A DNA stretch of 64,000 nt, taken from Chrysomallon squamiferum (Eukaryota; Mollusca; Gastropoda; Neomphalida; Peltospiridae). Location: the NCBI GenBank assembly GCA_012295275.1, contig CM022665.1:34801522-34865521 (forward strand). The letters run 5' to 3'. The notes below the pieces were generated by a model. That model made no database searches, was not told the DNA's origin, and saw only the letters and a list, made by a program, of their open reading frames with translations. The translations under genes and the position numbers were made by a program. Below, piece by piece: positions 14,239 through 57,639 of this stretch. The stretch's first letter is position 1. Each line of letters opens with the position of its first letter.

Positions 14239-27469
<13,231 letters not shown>

Positions 27470-30301: not shown

Positions 30302-31142
30302 AAAATATTCGTCAAGAACAACAAACAAAAATAATAAAAAATGATAATGACGGTGTAAAGGTCATTAATAAGTTTTATTTATCTATTTATTGTGCGTGTT
30401 ATTAGGTACATCCAGTGTTGTGATCTAAAAATTGCTTTTTATTTATTTTCAAATCTTTCTTTTTTTTAAATGTTATTATTTTTGAATCTTGGAAAAGTTC
30501 TGTCTGTAGCAGAGCACCAGAAATGCACCTTAATAAAATATAAAACTGATATTTGGCCTCTAATTTTGTTTTTCTCTTTGAATTTTTAATTTTTAATTAT
30601 ATTATTTTATTTTATTATGTAAATGAAGTCTTGAACATATTATTTGAAACAAACATAAAGTGAATTTTGTCCTTTTAAAACCGTTCTCGTAACCATACCT
30701 CTTTAGTCGTCGTTATCATCACCATTATTATTTCTCTTCTCCAACCAATGCTTTACACCCATTTAATCAAAGGCTAATTGCACATAAAAGATCCCTTGCT
30801 TCTAAACGAGAATGAATAGCTTAACAAGTAGCAGAAGTGAGTTTTACCTCTATTAACTATGTAAACTGTAGCTATATTTAGATGTAATAACGAAGATTAA
30901 ATAACACATTGTTAAACAAAACTCCTTGTTCTCTTATTTCAGTCTGTAACTTGCCCTTACAACCAGGAGACTGTGGGCTGGAAATTCCACGCTGGTATTA
31001 CGATAGTGAATCGGGGGAATGCAAAGAGTACATGTACTCAGGTTGCAAAGGCAATTCCAATAACTTCGACGACTATGCAGCCTGCGAACGTACCTGCATC
31101 ACGAAAACCTTTAGAAGAGGATCATTTGATGGAGAACTCTAG
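30082..31142 (+). CDS. Secreted single-domain Kunitz protein, P1 Gly
   Basis: Two coding exons, 30082-30178 and 30943-31142, join in phase 1 to give 98 residues. Exon 1 encodes a signal peptide (MNFRLVFFIISVTLTAVIS) and a short charged linker. Exon 2 starts two bases before the first Kunitz cysteine. All six cysteines have family spacing and the YSGCKGNSNNF core is present. Kunitz/BPTI domains normally block serine proteases through the residue after Cys2 (P1). Here it is Gly (GDC-G), so strong trypsin inhibition is unlikely and another target or role is possible. An aataaa signal lies at 31229-31234. A SINE fragment and an (AAT)n tract occupy the intron. Confidence 0.88.
30775..30870 (+). 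mobile_element. SINE fragment (molluscan-type core)
   Basis: The sequence cacataaaagatcccttgct followed by tctaaacgagaatgaatagc and gtgagttttacctct matches, with small differences, the middle of the molluscan SINE I recall (GCACATAAAAGATCCCTTGC, then TAATCGAAAAGAGTAGCC and GCGGGTTTCCTCT). It lies in the intron of the Kunitz gene. The 5' tRNA-related head is not recognisable. Confidence 0.55.
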
Positions 31143-31465
31143 TTAGCTTTATCAACTTGGGCTAACATCATGAGAAAACTTCACGATTCTCTTGTACACT
31201 CTTCGTTTATCAAATATAATTATTTAAAAATAAATAACAATTAAAAAACATTCATCTGGGTAAGAAATTTTATTAACATTTCATCGATCTGAACACATTG
31301 TGATAGTCACAAATACAGTAGAGGTAATAAGTAATACTCGTTCATTTAGATTGTTATAAATTAGAATTATTTCCAGTGTTCAGTAAAAATAAAACAACAC
31401 TTAAAACTGATTCAAATACAAATTTTTATTCGCATCACTCTGTAGTTTTCTTATTATTATAGTCA

Positions 31466-31509
<44 letters not shown>

Positions 31510-31878
31510 GTTATTATTATTATTGTAGTTTCTTCCTTCAAAGTTTTTATTTATTTATTTGTTTGTTTGTTTGTTTGTTTGTTTTGTTTGTTTAAATATA
31601 TTTTTTAATATATTCTGTTTAAGATATCACTTCCCAATATTCGATACTAGTTGTAAATTTTTAATTTAACAAAAAAAAAAAAAAAAAAAAAGTAAGAAAA
31701 TCTATTCCATACTAACAGAAGAGAAAACGAATAAACCAAAGGACCGATTGATTTAACCTCGCAATACGTGACTTGCATCACTGATTTCTTTACAGTGTTC
31801 TTATAGATTTCCTTTAGATACACTTACGCCATATTGATTTTAATATGTCAGCACAATAAAAACCGTAAATGATTTCTC
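31143..31878. other. Convergent intergenic region with (ATT)n tract
   Basis: It lies between two convergent Kunitz genes. It holds an (ATT)n tract at about 31,464-31,525, a (TTTG)n tract at 31,558-31,590 and a poly-A run at 31,671-31,691. No coding sequence is seen. Confidence 0.6.
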
Positions 31879-33876
31879 TTAGTAAAGATATTTGCAAGAG
31901 AAAGGTACGATTATTGTTAAAAGCAGACCACTGTACATCTTTCTGATATTTGGTGATCCGACATTTCTACCGCCCCGTGGGTCGACATTTCTTGGTTTGC
32001 AGGCCGCCTCACACTCCTCCTTTGTTTTGAAGTTGTTGCTGTTGCCACCGCATCCCCCGTAGATAAATTTCTCACAGCTTTCGAGCTGAGTGTTCCAGCA
32101 GTAACTGGGTATATACCCCAAGCACCTCCCTGTGTCTGGTGGAGCGGAACATACTGCATAACCAAAACAAATTCGTTTCGTTATTTATTAATCATATTTC
32201 ACCAGCTGGTACTGCTTACTGCTGTTAGAAATGTTACTACTATTACCATCTCTACTACTATTATTACTACAAATAATAATAATAATAATAATAATAATGC
32301 CGATGATGATTATTATATTGGTCATGATATACAGCATTTAAAATTACTGACTTGAACATATTCGTATCAAAATGGATGTGTTTTTATAAATTAGTAGAAT
32401 ACCATTCAGTGTAATGTAATGAAATATGATATGGTATTATATTAATATAATAAAAAGATAAATCCATAAACATTGAAACAATTAGATCTACGTTTTTCAG
32501 TTCTCTTTTTAAACAGAAATAACACAAACAACAAAGAATTTTAAATAAACAATCTGGATGACTTTTAATTCTCGATGAAAGATTTATAAAATCCAAGATT
32601 AACTTACTGTTTGTATTTCTTATTCTTCCATAGTTCACATGACTTACATCTTGGTTACTGTTTGCACGGGGTTTTCTGATGCTTGCAGAAAACCGGAGCT
32701 TTTTGTCCTTTTGGATGCCATTGCATTTGGGGCTAAGATAGGAATTAACAAAGGACTGTTTTTCTGCTTTTACATTTAATGGCTCGGGTTTTGGTTGATC
32801 TTTAAATGAGTCGTGCTCGACACGTCGATCTGAAGTTCTGTGATCAGCGTACGATTTGTCTGGCAAGTCCATGTCAATATACGGTTCTACCGGATTTTTA
32901 TCTTTTCGAGCTGTGTCTTTATGGTTGATATACAGCGTGGGTTTGTCAAAAACGTCCGGTAAACCTATGTCATTGTACGGTTTTTCTGGTTTTTTCTTTG
33001 GAAGTCTATCACTGATGTCAGGTGCACCCGATTAAGTAATCGGTTGATGCGAGTTTCCTTGTTTCTTCATTTTGGGATTGTTTAAGCCATATAAAGTGTC
33101 TGGTAAATCTGGTAAGCCAATGTCAGTGTGTGGTTTCTCTGGTCTATCAGCCTCTTTAATTCTAGGCTCGATGTCAGGGGTGGAATCGTCCAGAAGAACC
33201 GGTACATCGGCATCTTTGTGTGGTTTTTCTGGTTTCTTCGTTTCTGGAACGCTGTGAGACTTGGAATGGTCAGAGCCTATCGGAAAACCTATGTCGATAT
33301 ACGGTTTTGCTTCGTCATTTTTCTTTGCTTGACATTTAGCAAGGCATTCTTCTTCTGACAGGAAGCGGTTATCATTACCAGCACATCCACCGTATATAAA
33401 TATTTCACACTGTTCAGTAACCGGATCCCAGAAAAACACAGGAATATATGCTCGACACGGTCCACTAACAGGCTTTAAAGAACAAGCTGTTATAATTATA
33501 TGATATTTTATATGGTAACATAAAATATTTTAAAATAACAATTTTTATATATATAAATATAAAATAAATAAATAAATAATAATAATAATAATAAATGAAA
33601 AAAATTAAACAAAAATTATCATCAGCTATAAAAATAAAATAAAAATTAATATATATATTTTTTATTGTATTTTTTTTTTTTTTTACACAGATACACTTTA
33701 TTTATTGAAAAGTAATAAGTGAAAATATTAAAAGGAAAGACTAATTAATAATAAAATAATAAATTACATAATTAACAATACTTACAGTCAGCCAATTGTC
33801 TGAACTGAACAACATTGTGCTGTTCACTTTTGTTTAATAATGCCATGAGAATTATTAAGCCAACGAATACACCCAT
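31879..33876 (-). CDS. Two-domain Kunitz protein gene with in-frame TAA in the linker
   Basis: Three exons join in phase 1: 33876-33786 (signal peptide MGVFVGLIILMALLNKS), 33486-32608 and 32153-31879. Exon 2 begins with a complete Kunitz domain whose P1 is Arg (GPC-R), typical of trypsin-class inhibitors. A hydrophilic linker follows with about five copies of a (K/E)P(H/Y)xD(I/M)xLPD-type motif. Exon 3 holds a second Kunitz domain with P1 Leu and an extra cysteine (SYCW), then a basic stretch and a short hydrophobic tail. Codon 182 (33034-33032) is TAA. The same frame and the same repeat continue for 424 bases beyond it to a good donor, and the phases match exon 3. As it stands, translation would stop after 181 residues with one domain. 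Either this allele is truncated, the stop is a sequence error, or the second domain is a relic under decay. Confidence 0.82.
33541..33690. repeat. AT-rich simple repeat in Kunitz gene intron
   Basis: (TA)n, (AAAT)n and (AAT)n tracts followed by a poly-T run fill the intron between the signal exon and the first Kunitz exon of the two-domain gene. Confidence 0.7.
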
Positions 33877-34119
33877 GTCGAATTACATTAACACCTGATC
33901 CTCTTTGTTAAAATTTCAGACGACTGAACTGCCTAACGAGTCATAAACAGGTAAGAATGAGAAAGCAGCGACAATAAAGTAATAAATATGTGTGAATACA
34001 GTTACACCCGTTATTAAGTTGACGTCTATAGTTAGAAACACCGTGCAGTAAATTTTAATATTCGCTTACTTCAAGATAAGACGATTTTAAACAATGTTTC
34101 ATGAATCATAGGAAAGAGA

Positions 34120-34290
34120 GAGAATGAATAAATGATTTTTTAACGACAGCCCAGCACACACGCGCACGCACACACACAAATAATAATATTAGTAATCATC
34201 GACTATTGGGTAGAAAAGAGAAAGACAGAGAGACAGACACACACATAAAGAATAAATGATTGTTTAACGATATCCAAGCACAAAGTAATA
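34120..34290 (-). mobile_element. Two SINE tail-like copies 125 bp apart
   Basis: The sequence gaataaatgattttttaacg then acagcccagcacac (from 34132) recurs as gaataaatgattgtttaacg then atatccaagcacaa (from 34250). Both resemble the reverse-strand tail of the molluscan SINE (AAATGTTTTATTTAACGACG then CACTCAACAC). The stretch between them is purine and CA-rich simple DNA. The region 33,877-35,508 otherwise shows only AT-rich DNA, with a (TA)n at 34,396-34,418 and poly-T at 34,930-34,951. Confidence 0.45.
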
Positions 34291-35508
34291 ATAATAATAA
34301 TAATAGGTTATTACGTGAAAGAGAGAAAGAGACAGGCAGACAGAATGACAGACAAGAAAGATAGAGAAAAACAACACTAACGAGATTTCAGGCTTATATA
34401 TATATATATATATATATTTTAAACCCAGCGGATTTGCTTTCAGTATTTGTATGATCCTTAACAATATACATGACGCTGTATAACAGTAAATTAAAAACGT
34501 GCGTCTTTAAAAGGTTTCTTCCTGTAACATAGTCACATCTAGATAACAAACAAGTTGACCTGATTATGAAGACATGTTACTAACTGAAAGCCCGAAAATA
34601 TTTTAAAATTTATTTATTTATTATTTTATTATTATTAATTAATTTTTTTTTTGGTCACTTCATGACAAATAAATCACAGAGGGAGGGGAATTTTTGTTTG
34701 CTTTTAAGCTTCTCTGTTTGATGACATGAGTTTTGAATTTTACGAACGAAATGGAGACCATCTTGGTAAATGGTTGTAATTTTGGCTAGGGCATTTGTCT
34801 TTTTAGTGAACCGTGTTGAATATTTATGGATATTTCCATGCTTATATTATCATTTGAAGATTTTACATTGTTTGCTTAAGATAAAGGGTTATTAACTTTA
34901 ACTTTTACTGAATACAAATAAAAATAACATTTTTTTTTTTTTTTTTTTTTTAAACGCAAAACAAACCCACACACAACAAATATTTATCGTACTGTTGCTT
35001 TTAAATTTGCTTTTATATACCCGTTTGATTTTTACAAATAAATTTACATTCTTTCCTCAAACCTATTTCATTAACAAGATTAATATTTCTGTAGATTTAT
35101 ATTTAAAAACAAATGTTTCCAACATCTTAAGTGTAAATTTAGAAATCAATAATTATTTTAAATTAAAATAGTTCACAAGAATACATATAAATGTAAAAAT
35201 ATAAAAATTTATAAAAATGGAGTTTTTAATCCAATAAATATTACTAAAAATATATGTGTTTACTGAGTGCTATGGTTTTATCGCTTTTTATATATTTCAG
35301 CATTAAACAGACTCGACTTTTCTGGTATTCAGTGTAAGCATTTTAGCAATCTTTATTTCCATTGTTTAAAAATATTTATGTTCTACACAGCTTCGTGTAC
35401 TCGTAGAGGCATTTTTCTCAAACTGCTTCCGAAACCTTTAAAAAAACAGTAACATAACATATTTGTGCATTAAAACCAAGCATTTAACGTTTTGTATTCC
35501 AAGAGTTT

Positions 35509-36430
<922 letters not shown>

Positions 36431-37285
36431 TTTCTGAAGTACAAAACAATACATTATATATATGAGTATGTAAGTACATATAAGTAAAAAAGCAGCTTTA
36501 TGTCTTTATTCAAGTTAATTAAATCTGCCTGCCACAATGAACTGTTTACCGATAATTAATACAAATATTTTCTGTCATATTTCTTATTTCATAATTCTGA
36601 TACATCAATGATTTCCAAGAAGCGTATTTCGATTATGAATGTAATAAATATTCAGTAAATAAGAAAAATAAATTTTGATTGCATTAAATTGACAAATTAT
36701 TTATTTTTGTAATAACAGAGGGAAAAAACAAAAAGAAAATCACGGCAATGTAAACAAAGTGTATTTGTTTAATCATCTTTTTTTTTTTTTTATCACTTTG
36801 CAAATTTATTTATTTATTTTATTTATTATTTTATTTTATTTTGTTTATTTGTTAGTTAATTTAACACGTGTTTTGTTTATGACATCATACTACTTTTATG
36901 ACGTAATATTCGTTTGTTAATAGCTAAGCTCTTCGATATATTATTTTATACAATTATTATTTTGTGCGAAAAAAAAAATGTAATAAAAATATTTTCATAC
37001 ACTAGTTATTAAAAAGATCCACTAGTTTTAGTAACATGTAGACTTAAAAAAAAAAAAAAAAAAAAAAAGAAAAAGGTAAGCTTTGTTTTATTTTGCGTTT
37101 TCAAGCGATTGTATTTATTTATTTATTTATTTATTTATTGTGATTTAACACGAACATATAAAAATAAAATATGTATTGACGGTACAAGTAATAATAATAA
37201 TAACAAAAGAAATTAATAATAATATATGTAATAATGATAATAACAAAAAATAGCTGTAGCAATAACAACAATAATAGCAGCAATG

Positions 37286-37327
<42 letters not shown>

Positions 37328-37359
37328 GTAATATTTTTTTTTCTTTCTCAGGTACCACC
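36431..37359. other. Divergent intergenic region between two Kunitz genes
   Basis: AT-rich, with poly-A at 37,046-37,068, an (ATTT)n tract near 37,110-37,138 and (AAT)n at 37,280-37,325. It must hold the promoters of the divergent paralogues. A splice acceptor-like ctttctcag just before the ATG at 37360 suggests a 5'UTR intron. Confidence 0.45.
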
Positions 37360-38042
37360 ATGATAATCTTCCGTTGGTTTGTTGTGATGACAATTATTTT
37401 CCTATTACAAACATCTGGTGTCGATGCTGATCTTCCACAATGTAAATATATAATCTTTCCTTGATTTATAAAATCTTTATAATAACACGAGATTGAATAT
37501 TTTCTAGTGTCAAATTACAATTACAAAAAAATAATAATTTGAGTCTAATTGAGACATAATTGTAGGGATTAATTAGTTACCGTCTTAAGATATCAGCTTT
37601 ATCCTGCGAAGGTTAGAAAGCCATATTACAGCGAGGCTATGCCCAGCTGCATTCGACTTCCGACCCGAGCACGATAAAGACAGTAATCTTTTCTTTCTTT
37701 TTCTGTTGTTTTTATCATGCAGTCAAAAATGATTGACACTACAGACAGAGTTTATGTGAAAGATTCTTTAAATAGAGGTACAAAGGAACATCGTTCTGTA
37801 TTTTTTTCTAATATTAATATCGGAACTGAAATAATTTCCAGGAATCAGTACTGTTTTCTGTTTCAGTCTGTATGTATTCAAAGGACCCTGGACCCTGCGG
37901 CGAACACATCCCCAGATACTATTATAACGCTGACCTAGAACGCTGCAAGCACTTTTACTGGGGAGGATGCGGAGGGAATGACAACAAATTCCGAACAAAA
38001 CGAAAGTGCAAGAACATGTGCTATGAGGATTATGGAATTTGA
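37360..38042 (+). CDS. Secreted single-domain Kunitz protein, P1 Gly
   Basis: Exons 37360-37441 and 37867-38042 join in phase 1 to 85 residues. The signal peptide is MIIFRWFVVMTIIFLLQTSG, followed by VDADLPQ. The Kunitz domain has all six cysteines, RYYYNADLERCKHFYWGGC and an arginine/lysine-rich segment RTKRKCKNMC before a short acidic end. P1 after Cys2 is Gly. It is a close tandem paralogue of the next gene (39,172), which shares DLPQ, YYYNADL and KHFYWGGCGGN. An aataaa signal begins three bases after the stop codon, so the 3'UTR is very short. One copy of a dispersed 90-bp repeat lies in its intron. Confidence 0.9.
37563..37650 (+). repeat. Dispersed repeat, copy A
   Basis: Shares with 49,287-49,370 the order agggaataa(c/t)tagttac, (c/t)gtctta, cagctttatcctgcgaagg and ttcagcga(g/a)gctatg, in the same orientation. 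It lies in the intron of the Kunitz gene at 37.4 kb and is GC-richer than its surroundings. The family is unknown to me. Confidence 0.65.
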
Positions 38043-39171
38043 AAAATAAAGTTCTTAATACATTGTTTTCAATAACAATAATTATTAAAAAAATCCTAAA
38101 ACTATTTATTAATAATTATGTTTTAAATTTTTGTTTCGTTGTTTCAACAGATATTGTGTGATTGCTGGAAGAATTTAAGAAATAATAAAACATAAATAAT
38201 TATATGTATATTTTTTTGGCAATTATATTATTTTAAAACCATCTTATGTAATTTTCTTATAAGGATATAAAAATAAAATTAGAGATTCTGTCTTATTATT
38301 TCTGTGTGTGTGTGTGTATGTGTGTATGTGAGAGAGAAAGAAAGAGAGAGAGAAATATATAAATTATTTCGACTTACCATTTATAGTTTTGCTGGAAAGG
38401 GTTCCTTATTCATATTTTGAATTCAATATCGAAAGCCTTTGGTATGAATAGCTATTTCACTTTAATTATCAGTTGATGCAAATCATCATTAACTTTCTGG
38501 TTATTTATTTATTAATCTTGGAATGAAATAATTTAATTTAACTAAAATATTTTTTTACGATTAACCTACATTAATATAAAAATGATAAAAATAATCTAAG
38601 ATCCGAAACGTTGATGTCCTTTTTCTTGAATTTAAAAACATAGACGGATTTATAGTTCCATTATCACATCTCGCTATTATCTCTTTTTGATTCCATTGTG
38701 ACGTCATAATTATTTGTCTGATGGCAACGAAGGTATTAAGAAAATATTTCTCCGAAATTTAATCAGCTTACAACAAACAAACAAACAAAAAAAAAACATG
38801 TATTTCTAGAAATTTATTATTAAAAGGATTATATATACATTTAACATTGAAATCGAAAAGGTAAAGTATCGTATTATAACTATTATGATTCACCTCTAGT
38901 AAGAAAATAAATTTGGTCATGTAAAAGATACAAATACACGCAGACATATATTATTGCTATCTGTTATTTTTACAAATAACAGTATTACTATCGCTACTGC
39001 TACTACTGGTATTGCTGTTATTGCTAAAATTACTACTATATCTGATGATGATGAAGATGACGAAGAGGAAGATGATGATGATAAGGTTATAATGTTTTCT
39101 TAATAATTAATAACATAATGTTATCTAGAAAATTAAGTTGTTGTTATTGTTGTTTTTTCACAGTTATTATC
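38043..39171. other. Intergenic region between tandem Kunitz paralogues
   Basis: AT-rich with (TG)n and (GA)n at about 38,300-38,355 and a GAT/GAA-rich trinucleotide tract at 39,042-39,085. A tttttcacag acceptor-like site shortly before the next ATG (39172) mirrors the one before 37360. No gene is seen. Confidence 0.45.
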
Positions 39172-39412
39172 ATGACGATTGTCCAATGTTTTCTTGTTCT
39201 CATGATGTTTATTGGTCTGTTACCAAAATATGGTGTCGTTGGAGATCTTCCACAACGTAATCACATTTAAATAACTTCAATGTTTTCTTTTATAAATATT
39301 ATGTCAATTAAATGGCAATTTTCTAGATATTTAAGTAATAAATAAACAACTTCTAAACATTTTAGACTTTAAAAATATTTAATAGGTTTATTATCTATAT
39401 TGTATTCTTAAA

Positions 39413-39482
<70 letters not shown>

Positions 39483-39729
39483 GTGTGTGACGCGTGTGCA
39501 TGTAACTGACTCTGTTTAGTAATGATTATTTCTTTTTTTTGTATCCACTGTTACTCTTTCAGTTTGTCTATATTCAAGGGACGTAGGGCCATGCGAGGAG
39601 CAGATTTCGCGATATTACTACAACGCTGATCTAGGGAAGTGCAAACACTTTTATTGGGGTGGGTGCGGTGGAAACGCCAATAGATTCTTCACAAAACGAA
39701 AGTGCAAGAACACATGTTATGAGGATTAA
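39172..39729 (+). CDS. Secreted single-domain Kunitz protein, P1 Glu
   Basis: Exons 39172-39256 and 39563-39729 join in phase 1 to 83 residues. The signal peptide is MTIVQCFLVLMMFIGLLPK, followed by YGVVGDLPQ. The Kunitz domain keeps six cysteines, RYYYNADLGKCKHFYWGGC and FFTKRKCKNTC, and stops after CYED. The P1 residue after Cys2 is Glu (GPC-E), opposite in charge to that of a trypsin inhibitor. It is the tandem sister of the gene at 37,360; the difference at P1 is among the few changes in the first half of the domain. A (CT)n microsatellite (39415-39480) fills part of the intron. Confidence 0.9.
39415..39480. repeat. (TC)n microsatellite
   Basis: About 33 uninterrupted TC dinucleotides in the intron of the P1-Glu Kunitz gene. 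Confidence 0.95.
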
Positions 39730-42700
39730 AGATCAGAGTTCTAAATGAAGAGTTCTAAACTGTGTAAATGAAGAACTTGCATAAAAATATCAAATTTGAA
39801 AAACACTCGGCATTAATTATTCTAAAAGACACTGAAAAAAAAATATTATAATAAATAATTAAACAGTCCTGTTGATGATATTATTAAGATCTATTTAATT
39901 TTCAAGTCAAACAAGAAGCAAATGAATTATTATTGAAATTAACACATTCAGCAGTATTATAAAAGTAACCACACACACATAATATATACCCGTATGTAGC
40001 CTATTTATTTATATATGTATTAGCCACACATCAATCACTTATTAACTACCCACATATATAGATACTCTGATAAACACACACACACACTTAGAAATAGACA
40101 CACACACACATATACAGATTTATACATATATACTAAAGCATATTCACACATATGGGGAGATACGTTTACATACATACATATGAATACACGCGTATACATA
40201 TATATTAAAGTTTTATGGCCTGTTACTGATATTTACCAGGCACCAACCCTGTCTTCATACATACATATTCTACTTTTATATAATATAAAGACAGCTGTTT
40301 CGCTATTTATTTTATTCTATTATTTATTAAATGGTGAATTTATTTATGTATGGGAAGAGAAGGATGTGTGAATATGTGCTTGGGTCTTTTACATTTAATA
40401 TTCAGCATTATTTTAGATTTTTTTCTTTCTTTTTTTATAAATTTTAATTAATTAATTTATTTATTTATGTATTATTATTATTATTATTATTATGCAAACA
40501 TTTCAGCCAAAACATCGGAGCGAGTCTGGACATTTTGAAATAAAACATTTGTATAGGTCCCACCCACACAGTGAAATAAATAAAATAAAAAATTTTCAAA
40601 GTTTTATTTAAAAAAAAAAAAAAAAAAAAAAATTCATTTAAAGAAATATTTTAACTTCTTCATCTGTTTATTGTCGTCGATTTGATGATTATTTAAACAA
40701 AATATCGTAACGTAACGGATCCCAAAATTAGCGAATCTTTGGTTTTGTTGTGGATCTATGTGACGTCATACCATTGTAATTTGATAGTAAATTCAGTAAA
40801 TATTAAGGTAGTTTTAGCTTAATGAGATAAATATTTAAGCATACTAGTTAGAACAATGTAGAAGTGTTTTATTCTAGACTCTATCTTTTTTCCCCCCATC
40901 TAAATTCTAAAATAGGAAATTTTATCCAGTAGGTATGTCACAATCGACCGAAGTGCAGCGTTAAGCGATGGCCACGTCAGCGATCCGAGTACTGATTTGC
41001 AGATTAGAAGACATTGATGACACAGCCCACGTTTGTCTGGAGCCTCGTACTGGAATGTGTGTGTGTGTGTGTGTGGTTGTGTGTTTGTGTTTGGTGATTT
41101 TTTCGTGTATTTTAAACGAATTTAGATAATAAAATGCTGTTTTATCTTATTTGTTACTCTCGTTCTATTTAGTATATTCTGTGGGGGGTTTTGTGTTGTT
41201 GTTTCATTAGAGTTTTGTTGTTGTTGTTGTTGTTGTTGTTTTTGGTGCTTTTTATTACATAAAATATTAAAGTTTAAATAAATAGCGTTTATATATTCAT
41301 TTGTAAATTGGCATTGACCTTTTTTTTTAAATAAACTTTTTTTTTAAAATTAATATATTGATTTCTTATCTTTTTGTTTCTTTTTTCTTTCTTTCTTTAA
41401 ATTAATATATTAAACACATATAATATAATAAATTGATAATGATATATTTGAGATATACATCGAGTTCTTTTAATTTTATTCCTACATATTGTGTCAGATT
41501 TCTTTAAAAAAAAAAAAAAAGCTTTTTACCTTCACAACAGGGCACAGCGTGTCTTTTGTTGATTGATAACTACAACTCTGTTCATGAGGACCGTTGTCAA
41601 ACAAACACAGAGACATGTACTGAAAATGATAAACCTATATCGAAAACACTTAAAGTATCTACATAGTGAAAATATTAAAAGGATGAATAATTTTATAATT
41701 AAGACTTTTAAGGGTATTAAGCAAAGTATTTTGGTTGACTTCAGATAACCTTTCAGTAGCTGATGTACTTACTAATACTGCTGTATATAAATAAGTTTCA
41801 GGATTTGCGGTAATGATTACCATGAAGTTCATTTCTATTTTATTTACTTATGATGATTCCATTGATATATAATAAATATTAACACATCGGTAATTTGTAT
41901 AAGCAAACGCGTTAAAGTCACTCAATATCAGCCTGGCTGGGTATGGACTTATTCACGGGCAAAGGTCTGAGTTTCCTTTGAAATAAAGAAAGTGACTCAG
42001 GAATTAAAACTACAAGAAATCATAGTCATGTCCATAAATTAGACGTTAATGCTCTAATATTTTATATTAGTGTTGTGAATTCATATAGAGAACAAGAACC
42101 AAATGTTTTTTTTTGTTTTTGTTTTTTTAATATCGAAAATTGAGACATATTGGGTTGGCATGCTGGTCACATTCTTTCAGATCAAGAGAAACTTTCGATT
42201 TCTCCTGAATGGTGTTTATTAAAATCAAATACGTTTTACTATATCTGCAGTTTCTCACTGAATTTCTTTCTGTCTGCAGGGAATTTTAACCTTATTATTC
42301 ACGTCTTGCCTCGGTGGGGGGAAGCGGGGAGAGAAAAACAATGTTTTATCATGTTTCTTTAGAAATTTGTCACTGAATTTGTTTTCTACTTGTAATAACA
42401 TTTGAGAGGTACTTTTCTTTTTTCTAACCTTTTTATTTATTTATTTAATTGTTGTAGTTATTGTTATTGATATTGTTATTATTTATTAATTATTGTTATT
42501 ATTATTATTTATTTATTTATTTATTTATTCATTCATTTATTTATTTAGTTATTTATTATTATTATTATTTTTTAATTAATGTACATTTCGGAACACTTTT
42601 TTATGTTTTCTTATTTATTTTATTATTATTGTTACTATTTGCAAAGGTTTCCTGTTAAAGTGTGTTATTTTCCTGGGCTTTTTGTTTGTTTGTTTGTGGT

Positions 42701-43325
42701 TTTTATTTAAATCGTATTAAAAACGTCATAACGTTCTTAGATTTCATCATAAAGGTATAGGTACAACAGTAAAGTTAATTTCAAGATCTTTCCATTGATA
42801 TCAACAAAATTTGAATCGCTTCACTTTATAATATTTTGTCCCATACCTATATACAGAATATATCATGGTAAAGTAGCTATTTTATATATGACAAAGAACA
42901 CAATTTTTATTTTTATTATTATTATTATTAAAGATTGATTTATCTTTAGCTTGAGAACACAGGATATTTTTATTCCATAGTGTTGATAAGTATTTCTTCA
43001 TAAAAGTGCTTGTAAATATTATTTTACCTTCTCGAAGTAAAAACCAGGATTATTAAGAAATAAAGCTAACAATAGCTCTGTTTGCTTTTGTTTGGATTTT
43101 TTTCATTTGTTTTAGTTTTTGTTCTTTATTTTGTCAGTGAACTAGCAAGTCACAGTTTTTCAGATTTTAGTTTTTAATTTATTAGGATAAGTGTTTTCGC
43201 TTTTTTTTCAAAACACAAACCGTAACCGAAAAAATAAATAAATAAATATATAGTTAAATAAATTAATGAAATATCTATCTTGAATGTTATAATCGGTAGC
43301 TAACTGTTAAAAAATTTCTAATTAG
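39730..43325. other. Long gap with simple repeats and no certain gene
   Basis: It contains (CA)/(TA)-rich DNA at 39,970-40,200, poly-A at 40,611-40,631, (TG)n at 41,059-41,076, (GTT)n at 41,215-41,240 and (ATT)/(ATTT)n at 42,435-42,640. A GC-richer island at 40,935-41,060 has no recognisable content. A possible decayed signal-peptide exon (ATG at 41,813) may belong to the pseudogene that follows. Confidence 0.5.
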
Positions 43326-43509
43326 GCTGCTTGGGTCATTGCCTGGATCTTACACTCGTTTCTTCTTAGATAATAAAAAACGTGAGTGCACTGCTTTCAG
43401 GTATGGTGTTTGCGGTGGGAACACCAATAACTTACTGACAAAAAAAGGCTGTATGGATGTGTGTTTTTATCCAGCATCTCATCAATATCCACATCAAACT
43501 AAAGAATAA
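43326..43509 (+). pseudogene. Frameshifted Kunitz exon
   Basis: After an acceptor (ctaattag) the exon opens in the cluster's usual phase with Cys1 and Cys2 in one frame (CLGHC, with the Cys1-Cys2 spacing cut from 8 residues to 3). About 30 bases later that frame hits TAG. The +1-shifted frame, open from 43327 to the TAA at 43507-43509, carries FFLDNKKREC, YGVCGGNTNN and GCMDVC, that is Cys3 to Cys6 with normal spacing. Cys2 to Cys3 comes out at the family value of 15 residues if one base has been lost near 43,355-43,365. No intact signal exon was found upstream. It is therefore a dead member of the cluster rather than a working gene. Confidence 0.75.
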
Positions 43510-44147
43510 GTATGACGATAGGTTGTTAAAAACAAGGACCAACGAACTGTACTTTCATGTAAGACAACTTCTGCTTGCTGTGTTTTAAAATTCGTATCTC
43601 GAAATAAAGATCATCGTTATTATTAATATTATAATATAAATTAATTTTAATTTCAGATGACAATTTTTTTTTTTTTTTAATGTTTTAAAATGTTTATCTT
43701 AAAATAAAGATCGTTGTTGTTATTAATAATGTAATAAAATTAACTTTAATAATACATAACATACCTTCTGAATTTTAAATTTTTTTAAATGACTATCTTT
43801 AAATGAGGATCGTTGTTGTTACTGAAACTGAAATAGTATTATAATTAAGATTAGTAATAAAAGTACAGCTGTAATTATAGTTGACGTACATGAAGTAGTA
43901 GTAGTAATAGTAACGGTCGCGGTAGTAATAGTGGTAGAAATATTTTATTTTGTCTTGGAAATTGTAACCACTGCAGTGATGGAATCTCCTCTTTTCTTAA
44001 ATATATTGTTCACCATTTAATATACATTCTGTACGAAATATATGGTTACTGAACGTTGAGACAAAATTACTTTTCTTACTACAATATATTTTACTTTTAA
44101 ACGGTATGTTTAAATTTTACAATCCGGTATTTTGTAAAAACATTAGT
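43510..44147. other. Convergent gap between Kunitz pseudogene and minus-strand Kunitz exon
   Basis: Contains three diverged direct copies of 'atcttaaaataaagatcgttgttgttatta'-like sequence (split at about 43,594-43,620, 43,692-43,722 and 43,793-43,822), which is a local tandem duplication of about 100 bp. No coding sequence is seen. Confidence 0.5.
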
Positions 44148-44326
44148 TCATCCTATGGCCTTCAGAGGGGAGCAAACCTTAATGCATTCTTCAAATGTTT
44201 TGAAATTATTTGAGTTACCATCGCAACCACCGTAGATAAACTGCTCGCATTTCATTAAATAGACATCCCAGTAGAACCTGCGAAACAAACCTTTGCATGG
44301 TCCTGAATCATGCTTTTGGCTGCATA
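44148..44326 (-). CDS. Kunitz exon with trypsin-type P1 Lys (signal exon not placed)
   Basis: After a tctttgcag acceptor the exon begins in the cluster's usual phase (two bases before Cys1) and encodes a full Kunitz domain: GPC-K-GLFRRFYWD, CEQFIYGGCDGNSNNF, then CIKVC and a short tail ending TGA. P1 is Lys, the classical choice for trypsin/plasmin-type inhibition, and FIYGGC plus NSNNFKT match the second domain of the two-domain gene. A hydrophobic start (MFLLILLLILIKRG, 44754-44711) with a donor exists upstream, but it ends in phase 2 whereas this exon needs phase 1. The true 5' exon is therefore unknown. Confidence 0.75.
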
Positions 44327-45492
44327 CTGCAAAGACCAAATAAATAAATCAATAAAAATAATTAAGTAAACACATAAATAAGCTATGTTATTTAAATCGG
44401 AAAACGATAATGCAAATACTACTACAACAACTACTACTACTAATAATAATAATAAAATAATAATAATTTGTTGTTTTTAAAAAAAACATTTTCTCCAAAC
44501 ATAGCTATTTTATTTGCTATCAGTTTAATTATGTAGGGAATTTACAAGTGAAATTAAAATGTATTTATTAATTTTTAATTTTGTGTTATTTTATTTATTT
44601 ATTTATTTATTTATTTTTATAATCCTACTGCTACTCTTATTACAACTACTACTACCACCACCAGTGCTAAAACTACTGTTTAATTTTATTTTTACAATTT
44701 ATAACATTACCTTCCACGTTTTATGAGAATGAGCAGAAGAATCAATAAAAACATTTCCTCTCACAGTATTTTTGTTCCATCTGTTGGTCTTTACAGTAAA
44801 AGTGTTGTGTGTTCTTTCCCAGGCAAAAAAACCCTCCCACTGATAATAATGTGTACCAGTGTCCGATAGAAAGCTATCAAATGACTTATATTTTAGGATA
44901 CACTGATAATATTTGAAGACATACCAACTTGAACATCTTGGACATTTTCATTATTTTAGACTGCTAGACCGTAATTCTGTCAGAAATGATGTTAATTGCA
45001 TTGAACTATACGATCTTTTCCTTTTCTTCTTCTTCTCCCAACCCTAAACATCGAAAATCAGACAGTATTACGCGTTGCGTCATCCGAGACAGAACAAATA
45101 CGCTTCAATTTGTATTCACTCAGCTGCAAATACCCTCTACAGACCTAATGTAACTATCAAACAAAGTATTTGCAGACAGACCAAACGTAACTTCAACAAT
45201 AAAGATTTTATTTCCTGGTTTCAGGAGCTTTTCGTGGATATTACTGGTAAAACAATTCATTATATGTCAACATTAAAGAATGAAAAAAAGAAAGAAAAAA
45301 GATCTATAACGAAATTTAATATTCTTAGAGTACTTCCTGACACAGACTCACAAATGTACAGCACAAAAGGAAATATCATAATTAAATTCCGATAGAGGTT
45401 TTTTTTTTTAAATGATGATAGAAAAATGTTAGTCAAATAATTCTGAATGTACACCTTTCTTCTTACATTAAGGAATGAAAATGATTTCAAAG

Positions 45493-47944: not shown

Positions 47945-48292
47945 TTATCCTACGGGATTGACATATACTGGGGGAATAGGTGGTACATTAGTAGCTATAT
48001 CAGATGCTTTTGCAAATCTTTCTTGATGCACAGCCCGGTATCCTTCAGTTCTGCTACTGTATTTATCCCAAAGACGACACAAAACCGTACTGTTGATGTC
48101 TGCAAACTCGGCCATCACACAAGTTAAGTCGCTGACGCAGTCTCTGGCGCAAGTGAGGATGCTGTCGACTTCTATGCCAGCAATGACTGTATTTGGCGTC
48201 TGCGATGGAGACTCCACAGTAAATTGAGCTGTTACAGAACCTTCTGGAATGGCGAAGGGTAAAAACACTAGGAACATAACCCAGTAAATCAT
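47945..48292 (-). CDS. Small secreted PAN/apple-like protein
   Basis: One exon encodes 115 residues. Translation likely starts at 48292: the upstream part of the open frame follows a ttattacag acceptor at about 48,348 and reads as 5'UTR. Residues 1-22 (MIYWVMFLVFLPFAIPEGSV) form a signal peptide. The mature part has four cysteines in the order TCARDC, LTCVMAEFAD, LCRLWD, followed by YRAVHQERF. This C-x3-C-x6-C pattern and the following strand resemble half of a PAN/apple domain, known for protein or carbohydrate binding. A Pro/Val-rich end (PPIPPVYVNP) precedes the stop. It lies between the Kunitz cluster and the repeat protein, both also secreted. The family call is a resemblance only. Confidence 0.65.
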   Translation of the reverse strand: MIYWVMFLVFLPFAIPEGSVTAQFTVESPSQTPNTVIAGIEVDSILTCARDCVSDLTCVMAEFADINSTVLCRLWDKYSSRTEGYRAVHQERFAKASDIATNVPPIPPVYVNPVG

Positions 48293-48701
48293 GGTTGCTC
48301 TACCAGGTGCAGTACGATCACCGTTTGATTTTTTTTTGTTCTTCTGATCTGTAATAAAATAAATTTGACATGGTGTTAATCGAATTACAATGTCAGGGAT
48401 AGCAAATACCATTTCCTTTTATCGTTGGCTATTTGTAATTCTTTTTCGCCTTCATCCTTGCTCTCTGTTTTAGTTACTCTCATTTTTCTCTTACTCTCTT
48501 TCTTTCTTTAAACTCTGTTTCCATCTATTTTTTCCCCTGTCGCTCTTTCATTATCTTTCATACTTCTTCTTTGTCCGTATCTATCACCGATCTCTTTATC
48601 TCTCTCTTATTCGTTTTTCCTTTCTGTCTGATTCTCTCCTTCTCACTGACCCTCTTAGTCTCACACAACTATCCATCATCATTTTGTTTCTTTTCTTATT
48701 T

Positions 48702-53029: not shown

Positions 53030-53656
53030 ATTATAATAAACACTATGCATTATGATGCTGATAATGGTGATGTGGGTACTGCTGCTGCTGATGACCACAG
53101 TGGTTGTAAAATGATAAAGATGATTATACATTTTTATAGACGAAAAGTGAACAGGCAAATATTTGGGAGAAAACTAAAGGCTTCATTAATCTAAAATATA
53201 ATAGTCACAAGTAAATTACTGGACGGGATAACAAATTGGTTGTAATATATATGAATGGGTGGATGGACGTATGTATGTAGGCATGTATGCATGCAATAGC
53301 TTTAAACAAGAAAGTCTACTTTAAATGATTTTAAAATGATATTGAGGAATTGCTAAAATTAACGATCAAATACTAATAACTGACAGCAGAAAACAATAAT
53401 AAAGAATATGTAAAGGATATTTTAAATTTTATTTTGCTTTTCATGATAATTATTTTATTATTTTATTAGGTGCTTATGGAATATGGTCTGCTGTTGTAAA
53501 GAAAAGCAAAATTATTTTGTTTATATACAGATCCATCACAATACCTTCATAATAAATAATTAAAAAATGTAGTTAATAAAAGTAGCTTACAATTAATATT
53601 ATGTACAAAAGAAATAGAAAACCTACCAACTGTTTTCTTATCAATGAAGCAGTCTC

Positions 53657-56600
53657 CTACTCGACAAGAGATTGAGAAGATGAGAACGAGTCGAGTTTGT
53701 CTCGCTTGTCGTCATCCAAAGACTGAGAAGATGAGAACGAGTCGAGTTTGTCTCGCTTGTCGTCATCCAGAAACTGAGAAGACGAGAACGAGTCACTGAT
53801 TTCTCTCTTGTCGTCATCCAGAGACTGAGAAGAGGAGAACGAGTCGAGTTTGTCCCTCTTGTCGTCGTCCAGAGATTGAGAAGATGAGAAAGAGTCGAGT
53901 TTATCTCGCTTGTCGTCATCCAAAGACTGAGAAGATGAGAACGAGTCGAGTTTGTCTCGCTTGTCGTCATCCAGAGACTGAGAAGACGAAAACGAATCAA
54001 GTTTGTCTCGTTTGTCGTCATCCAAAGACTGAGAAGATGAGAACGAGTCAAGTTTGTCTCGCTTGTCGTCATCCAAAGACTGAGAAGATGAGAACGAATC
54101 AAGTTTGTCTCGCTTGTCGTCATCCAAAGACTGAGAAGATGAGAACGAGTCCAGTTTGTCTCGCTTGTCGTCCTCCAAAGACTGAGAAGATGAGAACGAG
54201 TCCAGTTTGTCTCGCTTGTCGTCATCCAAAGACTGAGAAGATGAGAACGAGTCGAGTTTGTCCCTCTTGTCGTCGTCCAGAGATTGAGAAGATGAGAAAG
54301 AGTCGAGTTTGTCTCGCTTGTCGTCATCCAGAGACTGAGAAGATGAGAACGAGTCACTGATTTCTCTCTTGTCGTCATCCAGAGACTGAGAAGATGAGAA
54401 CGAGTCAAGTTTGTCTCGCTTGTCATCATCCAGAGACTGAGAAGATGAGAACGAGTCGAGTTTGTCCCTCTTGTCGTCGTCCAGAGATTGAGAAGATGAG
54501 AAAGAGTCGAGTTTGTCTCGCTTGTCGTCATCCAGAGACTGAGAAGACGAAAACGAGTCAAGTTTGTCTCGCTTGTCGTCATCCAAAGACTGAGAAGATG
54601 AGAACGAGTCCAGTTTGTCTCGCTTGTCGTCATCCAAAGACTGAGAAGATGAGAACGAGTCAAGTTTGTCTCGCTTGTCGTCATCCAAAGACTGAGAAGA
54701 TGAGAACGAATCAAGTTTGTCTCGCTTGTCGTCATCCAAAGACTGAGAAGATGAGAACGAGTCAAGTTTGTCTCGCTTGTCGTCATCCAAAGACTGAGAA
54801 GATGAGAACGAGTCAAGTTTGTCTCGCTTGTCGTCATCCAAAGACTGAGAAGATGAGAACGAGTCGAGTTTGTCCCTCTTGTCGTCGTCCAGAGATTGAG
54901 AAGATGAGAAAGAGTCGAGTTTGTCTCGCTTGTCGTCATCCAGAGACTGAGAAGATGAGAAAGAGTCGAGTTTGTCCCTCTTGTCGTCATCCAGAGACTG
55001 AGAAGACGAAAACGAGTCAAGTTTGTCTCGCTTGTCGTCATCCAGAGACTGAGAAGATGAGAAAGAGTCGAGTTTGTCCCTCTTGTCGTCGTCCAGAGAT
55101 TGAGAAGATGAGAAAGAGTCGAGTTTGTCTCGCTTGTCGTCATCCAGAGACTGAGAAGATGAGAAAGAGTCGAGTTTGTCCCTCTTGTCGTCATCCAGAG
55201 ACTGAGAAGACGAAAACGAGTCAAGTTTGTCTCGCTTGTCGTCATCCAAAGACTGAGAAGACGAGAACGAGTCACTGATTTCTCTCTTGTCATCATCTAG
55301 AGACTGAGAAGATGAGAACGAGTCACTGATTTCTCTCTTGTCGTCATCCAGAGACTGAGAAGATGAGAACGAGTCAAGTTTGTCTCGCTTGTCATCATCC
55401 AGAGACTGAGAAGATGAGAACGAGTCGAGTTTGTCCCTCTTGTCGTCGTCCAGAGATTGAGAAGATGAGAAAGAGTCGAGTTTATCTCGCTTGTCGTCAT
55501 CCAAAGACTGAGAAGATGAGAACGAGTCACTGATTTCTCGCTTGTCATCATCCAGAGACTGAGAAGATGAGAACGAGTCAAGTTTGTCCCTCTTGTCATC
55601 ATCCAGAGACTGAGAAGATGAGAACGAGTCGAGTTTGTCCCTCTTGTCGTCGTCCAGAGATTGAGAAGATGAGAAAGAATCGAGTTTGTCTCGCTTGTCG
55701 TCATCCAGAGACTGAGAAGACGAAAACGAGTCAAGTTTGTCTCGCTTGTCGTCATCCAAAGACTGAGAAGATGAGAACGAGTCAAGTTTGTCTCGCTTGT
55801 CGTCATCCAAAGACTGAGAAGATGAGAACGAGTCAAGTTTGTCTCGCTTGTCGTCATCCAAAGACTGAGAAGATGAGAACGAGTCGAGTTTGTCTCGCTT
55901 GTCGTCATCCAAAGACTGAGAAGACGAGAACGAGTCACTGATTTCTCTCTTGTCATCATCTAGAGACTGAGAAGATGAGAACGAGTCACTGATTTCTCTC
56001 TTGTCGTCATCCAGAGACTGAGAAGATGAGAACGAGTCAAGTTTGTCTCGCTTGTCATCATCCAGAGACTGAGAAGATGAGAACGAGTCGAGTTTGTCCC
56101 TCTTGTCGTCGTCCAGAGATTGAGAAGATAAGAAAGAATCGAGTTTATCTCGCTTGTCGTCATCCAAAGACTGAGAAGATGAGAACGAGTCAAGTTTGTC
56201 TCGCTTGTCGTCATCCAAAGAATGAGAAGACGAGAACGAGTCACTGATTTCTCGCTTGTCATCATCCAGAGACTGAGAAGATGAGAACGAGTCAAGTTTG
56301 TCCCTCTTGTCATCATCCAGAGACTGAGAAGATGAGAACGAGTCGAGTTTGTCCCTCTTGTCGTCGTCCAGAGATTGAGAAGATGAGAAAGAGTCCAGTT
56401 TGTCTCGCTTGTCGTCATCCAGAGACTGAGAAGACGAAAACGAGTCAAGTTTGTCTCGCTTGTCGTCATCCAGAGACTGAGAAGACGAAAACGAGTCCAG
56501 TTTGTCTCGCTTGTCGTCATCCAAAGACTGAGAAGACGAGAACGAGTCACTGATTTCTCTCTTGTCATCATCTAGAGACTGAGAAGATGAGAACGAGTCA

Positions 56601-57174
56601 CTGATTTCTCTCTTGTCGTCATCCAGAGACTGAGAAGATGAGAACGAGTCAAGTTTGTCTCGCTTGTCATCATCCAGAGACTGAGAAGATGAGAACGAGT
56701 CGAGTTTGTCCCTCTTGTCGTCGTCCAGAGATTGAGAAGATGAGAACGAGTCGAGTTTGTCTCGCTTGTGGTCATCCAAAGACTGAGAAGATGAAATGAA
56801 GTAGAGTTTGTCTCGCTTGTTGTCGTCTGGTAAACAGATTCATTGTTGTAAACAGAAACAAAATGAATTAATAATATTTTTGACAAGTAACAGTGAATAC
56901 GTGTTTAAAGAAAATCATAGGATTCTGACAAAAAATTAATTTAGAAATTACTTTCAAATTTTCTTAAATTATCTCAGCAAAACATATTGGCAATTTATTC
57001 AGATTCTTCTCTAAAAAGACTAACTGTTTGAAAAGAAATTGTTTTTTACATACCAGAAAGAGGGACATTTTCGTACGTTTCTTCCCTCTTCTGCATCATA
57101 AAACCATTGTTAAGCGATTTTCCGAATGCAAAACCAACAAGGGCAAATCCTAAGGTTAGTAGTAGAAAGTTCAT
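53657..57174 (-). CDS. Secreted 17-residue-repeat protein, about 62 KR-bounded units
   Basis: Exon 1 (57174-57054) encodes a signal peptide, MNFLLLTLGFALVGFAFG, then a short region with a dibasic site (MMQKREETYENVPLS). It joins in phase 1 to exon 2 (56826-53657), giving 1,096 residues ending SLVE and TAG. Exon 2 is almost wholly tandem 51-bp units encoding KRDKLDSFSSSQSLDDD. Ten units carry the variant KREISDSF. Few other changes are seen (one SSSH, one FLSS, one EDDK, a divergent first unit DDNKRDKLYFISSSQ). There is no stop or indel over 3.1 kb, so the frame is under selection or the expansion is recent. Each unit has five or six Ser and net charge about -2 to -3. SLDDD is a good acidophilic-kinase context. 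Every unit carries Lys-Arg, the classical proprotein-convertase site. Either an acidic structural or calcium-binding secreted protein or a multi-copy peptide precursor fits. I know no homologue. Confidence 0.85.
53660..56826. repeat. 51-bp coding tandem array with higher-order structure
   Basis: About 62 units. The variant unit encoding EIS shows on the plus strand as cactgatttct at about 53,793, 54,354, 55,274, 55,325, 55,528, 55,937, 55,988, 56,242, 56,548 and 56,599. Three adjacent pairs are spaced 663 and 611 bp (13 and 12 units). A rare word catcatctagagactgag recurs at about 55,287, 55,950 and 56,562 with the same spacing, so blocks of 12-13 units were themselves duplicated. Confidence 0.92.
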
Positions 57175-57639
57175 AGTGCAGTAACAAGTTCTTTCGTTTT
57201 TCGAAGCAATAGCGTATAAACTGTGATTTGTTTTGACAAATGTTATTCCTTTTATAGGCAAGCATCCCTTGGCTGAGAAATAAGTAGCAAAATATTTTCA
57301 TATTTCCACTAAGCCGCACTGTGATATCTTTTTATTAACTGACCAACAGCTAGGAGGGCAGCTTGAAATTACTTTATTGCAATAAATCAGGTACTAGTTA
57401 ACAGGTGTTACACGACTAAAACAAAATATTCTCGTTTTTGAACATTTTAATTATTTACCGAAGTACCAGTTTTGTTGCTTAAAATTTCTTTTGAAAATGA
57501 TGATTGCAAATAAAGGACATACTTCTAAAAGTCTATTTTTAATTAAATAAATTTTGAAAAGGTACATCATATTACAATTTAATTAACATGCCTCTAAAAA
57601 AACATTTAAAAAAAAAAAAAAAGTAATTATAACGAATCT

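Follow-up and report, generated by a model that had tools for sequence, protein, structure and literature searches.

Introduction

Precursors that carry many copies of a peptide are known to be matured by a convertase cut followed by carboxypeptidase trimming. A Lys-Arg (KR) pair in the non-repeat N-terminal part and a last peptide that ends at the stop with no KR after it are usual in such precursors, and many signalling peptides carry an amidation Gly or a hydrophobic or aromatic C-terminus. Copy numbers can be considerable: the FMRFamide precursor of Aplysia is described as having 28 copies (PMC4208409) and the GPRGamide precursor of Stylophora as having 50 (PMC7523074). For the pedal peptide/orcokinin (PP/OK) family, PMC5814872 describes three conserved hydrophobic positions, two of them near the C-terminus. 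Here we describe a gene of the scaly-foot snail Chrysomallon squamiferum, located in a 64,000-nucleotide stretch of contig CM022665.1 (assembly GCA_012295275.1, positions 34,801,522 to 34,865,521; the whole stretch is hereafter called the window), that encodes a signal peptide and a long array of KR-bounded units (hereafter the repeat gene). Judged from its sequence, it is probably a single-locus gene whose product is a multi-copy peptide prohormone that is cleaved at Lys-Arg.

Results

A two-exon gene encodes 62 units bounded by Lys-Arg

The repeat gene lies on the minus strand, and translation of the joined frame upheld the limits of 57174 and 53657 proposed for it in a preliminary description made from the letters of the DNA. 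Exon 1 (57174-57054) begins with the ATG, contributes 121 nt of coding sequence and ends in phase 1. It specifies a signal peptide recognised from hydropathy, MNFLLLTLGFALVGFAFG (57174-57121; cleavage site placed by eye), which is the sole hydrophobic stretch of the protein, high 13-residue hydropathy windows being confined to the N-terminus. The first KR (57090-57085) falls within the N-terminal non-repeat segment in exon 1, and a 13-residue spacer peptide, EETYENVPLSDDN, begins in exon 1 and runs on into exon 2. The intron predicted from the sequence (57053-56827; 227 bp, phase 1) has GT-AG ends (GTATGT...CCAG) and splits an Asp codon into G and AC. Exon 2, the repeat exon (56826-53657), is open to a TAG, and the joined exons encode a protein of 1096 residues.

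The array (53660..56818, minus strand) consists of 62 units, a count that depends on the assembly: 61 units of 17 residues, each a KR followed by a 15-mer, and a last unit of 16 residues, KRDKLDSFSSSQSLVE, whose peptide extends to the stop without a KR after it. Tandem Repeats Finder (TRF) reported a period of 51 bp, 61.9 copies and 0% indels. The protein contains 63 Lys-Arg pairs and lacks KK, RR and RK, and from the second pair onward the spacing of KR is exactly 17 residues at 61 of 61 steps. Forty-eight of the 62 units are KRDKLDSFSSSQSLDDD and eight are KREISDSFSSSQSLDDD, the remainder being four one-residue variants of these, a diverged first unit and the last, which ends SLVE-stop; two of the one-residue variants join the eight KREISDSFSSSQSLDDD units to give ten units of the EIS type. 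At the DNA level the 61 full units comprise 27 distinct versions, encoding 7 distinct peptides, and the Arg of KR alone is written as CGA in 39, AGG in 14 and AGA in 8. Exact repeats within the array reach 248 bp. One run of four units is found exactly at three places, so that the array probably grew through block duplication, unequal exchange or conversion.

Without its signal peptide the protein has a computed isoelectric point (pI) of 4.2 and a net charge of about -132; the uncut protein would be of ~122 kDa, and the 15-mer DKLDSFSSSQSLDDD has a monoisotopic mass of 1657.70 (829.86 as the 2+ ion), the EIS form EISDSFSSSQSLDDD one of 1630.65 (816.33 as the 2+ ion). AlphaFold2, run on 198 array residues as a single sequence without alignment, gave no fold (mean predicted local distance difference test score 51, predicted template modelling score 0.13).

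Most of what the preliminary description had read from the locus held. The signal-peptide exon, the phase-1 junction and the roughly 62 in-phase, KR-bounded 51-bp units are borne out by the joined frame, the indel-free array and the constant spacing; the EIS variant that it had pointed out recurs in the ten units just mentioned, and the unit sequence agrees that no amidation Gly precedes the KR. Its account of an acidophilic-kinase context fared less well. The Ser that it had placed directly before Asp-Asp occurs in that position in 0 cases, the actual order being Ser-Leu-Asp-Asp-Asp. One CK2-type S-x-x-D per consensus unit does remain (61 S-x-x-D/E in the protein), with a single S-x-E, which makes for a weaker kinase context than had been claimed.

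The array is coding and its peptide is constrained

An open frame is weak evidence of coding here: the unit length, 51, is a multiple of 3, and a frame that lacks a stop in one unit will generally lack one in the next; other frames too stay open over long stretches of the array. The pattern of variants among the units, by comparison, is strong evidence that the array is coding. In units 2-61 there are 19 single-base variants that are each present in at least three units. Five of these form the EIS block, occurring always together and in the same 10 units, and all 14 of those outside the block are synonymous when read in the KR frame, against an expectation of 26% (P ~6e-9). The same 19 variants read in the five other frames yield 1, 1, 4, 11 and 1 synonymous changes, and the consensus unit of the frame with 11 contains a stop. 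Lowering the threshold to at least two units leaves 14 synonymous and 5 nonsynonymous variants, the latter being again the EIS block, and among the six variants present in one unit only, 2 are synonymous and 4 are not. Within this gene (one gene, in one species) the peptide sequence is under strong constraint.

The repeat gene shares its architecture with a pedal-peptide precursor of its genome

Contigs of the same genome searched with pedal-peptide units gave 19 matches at E <= 1, including weak ones on contigs C7, C15 and C9. A pedal-peptide precursor, in the frame from C10:7656489, contains 23 units of type SFDSINGHSGLSGFA with dibasic boundaries and a unit spacing of exactly 17 residues at 22 of 22 steps, and its variants present in at least two units comprise 16 that are synonymous and 5 that are not. 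The repeat gene resembles it in its 51-bp, 17-residue unit, its dibasic boundaries, its many near-identical copies, its lack of an amidation Gly and the mostly synonymous nature of its recurrent variants. In both genes, moreover, the repeats occupy one exon downstream of an inferred acceptor. A second frame, from C10:7689128, ~32 kb downstream of the pedal-peptide precursor, is a near copy of the precursor's eight final units and C-terminus.

Three further KR-bounded multi-copy precursors are present on contigs C10 and C2, with peptides PFDSLGGMNVHGGF, QFDSIDSGSNFRRFG and PFDSLASGLIG and with 12, 11 and 11 repeat matches, respectively. We take PFDSLGGMNVHGGF to be FCAP-like and PFDSLASGLIG to be LASGL-like, family names that we assign by resemblance. 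These three precursors have Phe-Asp-Ser in common with the pedal peptide, a hint of one superfamily.

The likeness of architecture does not extend to the peptide itself. We scored the peptides with a profile derived from 11 pedal peptides and assessed significance by shuffles of the 15-mer. The DKL form scored 2.0, a value matched by 36% of shuffles (27% for the N-terminal half), and the EIS form was matched by 41%; the three other multi-copy precursors, represented by one peptide apiece, gave scores of 9.3-14.7. Mean BLOSUM scores versus pedal peptides were likewise at the level of shuffles (P = 0.22 for the DKL form and 0.37 for the EIS form). With regard to the C-terminus, the units end in Leu-Asp-Asp-Asp or a near variant and a terminal Phe is found in 0 of 62, though the Leu could represent the other hydrophobic position. 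The intron before the repeat exon is in phase 1, compared with phases of 0, 0, 0 and 2 inferred for the pedal-peptide gene and the three related precursors, whose acceptors were placed from sequence. A motif LDSF is present in 51 of the 62 units, the exceptions being the first unit and the 10 of the EIS type. It is a hint of the pedal-peptide start: when the 15-mer is shuffled, 5.4% of the resulting sequences contain a hydrophobic-Asp-Ser-hydrophobic motif, and 1.4% have it beginning at one of the first three positions. Membership of the PP/OK family was rejected on the missing Gly-Phe end, the chance-level profile score and the different intron phase.

Searches for relatives of the peptide

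Neither a 434-aa query (signal exon plus first units) nor the 1055-aa exon-2 protein had a match in the protein database at the cut-offs used (E <= 0.001 and E <= 10), with 8000 candidates scored per search. As a control, a query of Aplysia pedal peptide in artificial tandem found one precursor; animal coverage is therefore thin, and the blank protein search is weak and says little on other gastropods. In addition, composition correction may mask matches of repetitive proteins in such a search. Pfam returned nothing at E <= 10 for exon 2 or for a 79-residue N-terminal piece, and the lone match in the PDB (E = 9) was judged to be due to chance. Pattern-matching stretches numbered 80 in prokaryote genome contigs and 15 in viral contigs, and 0 were confirmed. 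Four unit fragments were absent from the paper text searched, literature on Chrysomallon and neuropeptides, in the portions covered, was unrelated, and the unit was named in none of the titles that broader literature searches returned. No paralogue was found among the candidates scored in the snail's own genome (an assembly of 404.6 Mb, in which 15 contigs measure 16.7-49.2 Mb and 7 are shorter than 40 kb): the 32 matches of the unit at E <= 0.001 and the 36 matches of the N-terminal 62 residues at E <= 10 all fell at this locus. As far as these searches reach, with animals thinly covered, the 15-mer appears to belong to no recognised family.

Candidate transcription signals and neighbourhood of the repeat gene

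Upstream of exon 1 a candidate TATA box, CCTATAAAAGG (57248..57258, minus strand), has the T of TATA at 57256, 82 bp from the ATG. CCTATAAAAGG is unique in the window when both strands are searched; TATAAAAG occurs 12 times in the window over both strands, or ~0.0075 expected occurrences per 80 bp of one strand. A candidate start site chosen by eye, TCACAG on the same strand, has its A at 57224, ~32 bp downstream of the TATA box. Past the stop, the first AATAAA (53462..53467, minus strand) is 189 nt away, and further copies begin at 53459 and 53433; these are signal matches only. Third-position GC is 0.54 in the repeat gene, compared with 0.31 in a PEX6-like exon of the window and 0.47 in the pedal-peptide exon. 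Scanning the window for Rfam families and tRNAs returned no match, and a bacterial-code tRNA scan of stretches taken from each of the seven contigs under 40 kb was likewise blank.

Elsewhere in the window, seven open frames with Kunitz/BPTI domains, on both strands, form an inhibitor cluster (30891-44348), four on the plus strand (30891-31139, 37830-38039, 39526-39726 and 43300-43506) and three on the minus strand (31882-32184, 33035-33529 and 44151-44348). A probable PEX6 gene on the plus strand (14239-16189) is indicated by a fourth-domain match at 15839-16189 that falls below the cut-off (E 0.037) and by AAA-like frames seen by eye further downstream; its portion 14239-15612 had no family match. 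An exon at 7163-7372 on the minus strand encodes an HBB domain, a domain known from XPD/ERCC2-type helicases, and a minus-strand open frame at 47945-48412 has weak PAN-like domain matches, also below the cut-off (E 0.006 and 0.019). Outside the window, 27 matches to haemocyanin beta-sandwich domains, two of them with internal stops, lie within 70 kb (C6:24882028-24951449), and 0 were found in 14 control genomes; a domain of this kind is typical of molluscs.

Discussion

We read the repeat gene as a multi-copy prohormone because its build matches that of the pedal-peptide gene of the same genome, and the separation of the signal-peptide exon from the repeat exon supports this reading, which we consider probable. 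It is also favoured by the retention of KR in every unit despite three Arg codons, by the three further KR-bounded precursors of the genome, by the precedents for high copy number and by the lack of a predicted fold. The signal peptide would route the protein into the secretory pathway, where subtilisin-like prohormone convertases would cut after every Lys-Arg and a carboxypeptidase E/D-type enzyme would trim the basic pair. Processing of this kind would yield as many as 48 identical copies of DKLDSFSSSQSLDDD and 8 of EISDSFSSSQSLDDD, along with a small number of variants that occur once each and the terminal DKLDSFSSSQSLVE; every one of these peptides would have a free acid at its C-terminus. 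The core common to the DKL and EIS forms is DSFSSSQSLDDD. Asp-Asp-Asp-Lys, which we take to be enterokinase-like, was weighed as a cut site and then set aside. Single 51-bp units and blocks of them would have multiplied through conversion or unequal exchange, enlarging the array, while selection kept the peptide sequence, and the product would most likely serve as a neuropeptide or other secreted signal, as that of the pedal-peptide precursor does. The sequence itself shows a start like that of a signal peptide, the repeats, their KR boundaries and the constraint; we infer that the gene is transcribed and spliced, that convertases cleave its product and that the peptide is released and has a receptor and a function.

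Several observations weigh against a prohormone. The 15-mer has neither an amidation Gly nor a hydrophobic or aromatic C-terminus, its Ser- and Asp-rich sequence equally suits matrix proteins, and the predicted disorder fits a precursor and a matrix protein alike and so does not discriminate between them. The EIS block is a genuine three-residue replacement in 10 units. Several positions of the unit are conserved no less than KR is, and conservation of KR alone is no proof of cleavage. The intron acceptor is weak, with pyrimidines at 10 of 19 tract positions, and failed a simple acceptor filter, which lowers our confidence in the reading. Finally, the support comes from sequence and from a single species.

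The preliminary description had left open whether the product is a peptide precursor or an uncut matrix protein; the pedal-peptide architecture found in the same genome strengthens the former, and the latter stays as the main rival, unlikely in our estimation. The protein would in that case be an uncut, acidic, Ser/Asp-rich low-complexity component of the shell, the scales, mucus or the periostracum that may carry one phosphate in each unit and bind calcium or metal ions, with KR acting as charge spacers. Its low pI and strong negative charge, the absence of a predicted fold for the 198 residues modelled without alignment and the one CK2-type site per consensus unit all suit such a role. Matrix repeats, however, usually accept Asp/Glu or Ser/Thr exchanges and changes of length, whereas this array has no indels, a strict unit length and near-exact residues despite many synonymous changes, and its KR layout and 17-residue period are like those of the same-genome precursor. 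A point in favour of the rival is that the ratio of low-complexity-repeat genes in the Chrysomallon mantle is reported to be above that of the whole genome (PMC7142155). The probable source, a vent snail with iron-infused hard parts (PMC7142155), together with the very high copy number and the strongly acidic product, favours a bulk acidic peptide, cut from the same precursor and serving a non-neural role in mineral or metal handling, defence, symbiont tissue or reproduction. The sequence, however, indicates no particular tissue, and we regard this role as decidedly unlikely.

A strongly diverged PP/OK paralogue would account for the LDSF of 51 units, as a counterpart of the FDSI/LDSV start, with Asp-Asp-Asp in place of Gly-Phe, and for a unit length equal to that of the genome's pedal peptide. 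Profile and BLOSUM scores at the level of shuffles, the lack of Gly-Phe in 62 of 62 units, the differing intron phase and the loss of the first hydrophobic residue from the EIS units nonetheless make it very unlikely. An assembly artefact, or a non-coding minisatellite that is open by chance, would explain a 51-bp tandem in which stretches of as much as 248 bp recur exactly, and the copy number may indeed be misassembled or vary between animals; yet the 27 distinct DNA units among 61, recurrent variation outside the EIS block that is exclusively synonymous, and an intact signal-peptide exon and TATA box render this explanation extremely improbable.

A bolder reading is that the gene founds a peptide family of its own, confined to this species or to vent (neomphaline) gastropods. 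Its 62-unit precursor would then flood a tissue with the acidic 15-mer, which may be phosphorylated and which would either have its own receptor or be secreted in bulk to handle minerals or metals, in connection with the iron-infused hard parts or the symbiont-bearing gland. This extended scenario is speculative and, to our minds, quite unlikely. The statement of the preliminary description that no described family has this unit accords with our blank protein, Pfam, PDB, contig and paper searches, within their thin coverage of animals. If the peptide is released, it would be a ligand outside the families found and would offer a candidate, open to direct testing, for a signal or secretion that is specific to the lineage of the scaly-foot snail.

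Set beside known systems, the protein resembles the molluscan shell matrix proteins with repetitive low-complexity domains in being secreted (as predicted here), repetitive and of low complexity (PMC7142155), and it is acidic; it differs from them in having Lys-Arg at every unit boundary and a constant unit length, and the Pfam search found no domain in it. Dozens of identical copies are a feature that it shares with the FMRFamide precursor of Aplysia and the GPRGamide precursor of Stylophora, but the peptides of these are short, amidated and unrelated in sequence. If its peptide is released, the repeat gene, with 48 identical copies, would rank near the top in copies of a single peptide per precursor, the highest counts in the sources consulted being 28 and 50. 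The three other multi-copy precursors of its own genome likewise encode tandem peptides separated mostly by KR, but the peptides are unlike the 15-mer, and those of QFDSIDSGSNFRRFG and PFDSLASGLIG have an amidation Gly before the KR. The pedal-peptide gene, the closest in build, has 23 units compared with 62 and uses KK and RR as well as KR, whereas the repeat gene uses KR only, and the peptide of the repeat gene has an acidic end in place of the C-terminal Gly-Phe and lacks the Pro/Ser-Phe-Asp-Ser start of pedal peptides. That two precursors of one genome have the same 51-bp architecture and dissimilar peptides suggests that a unit of this kind can be amplified while its peptide stays constant.

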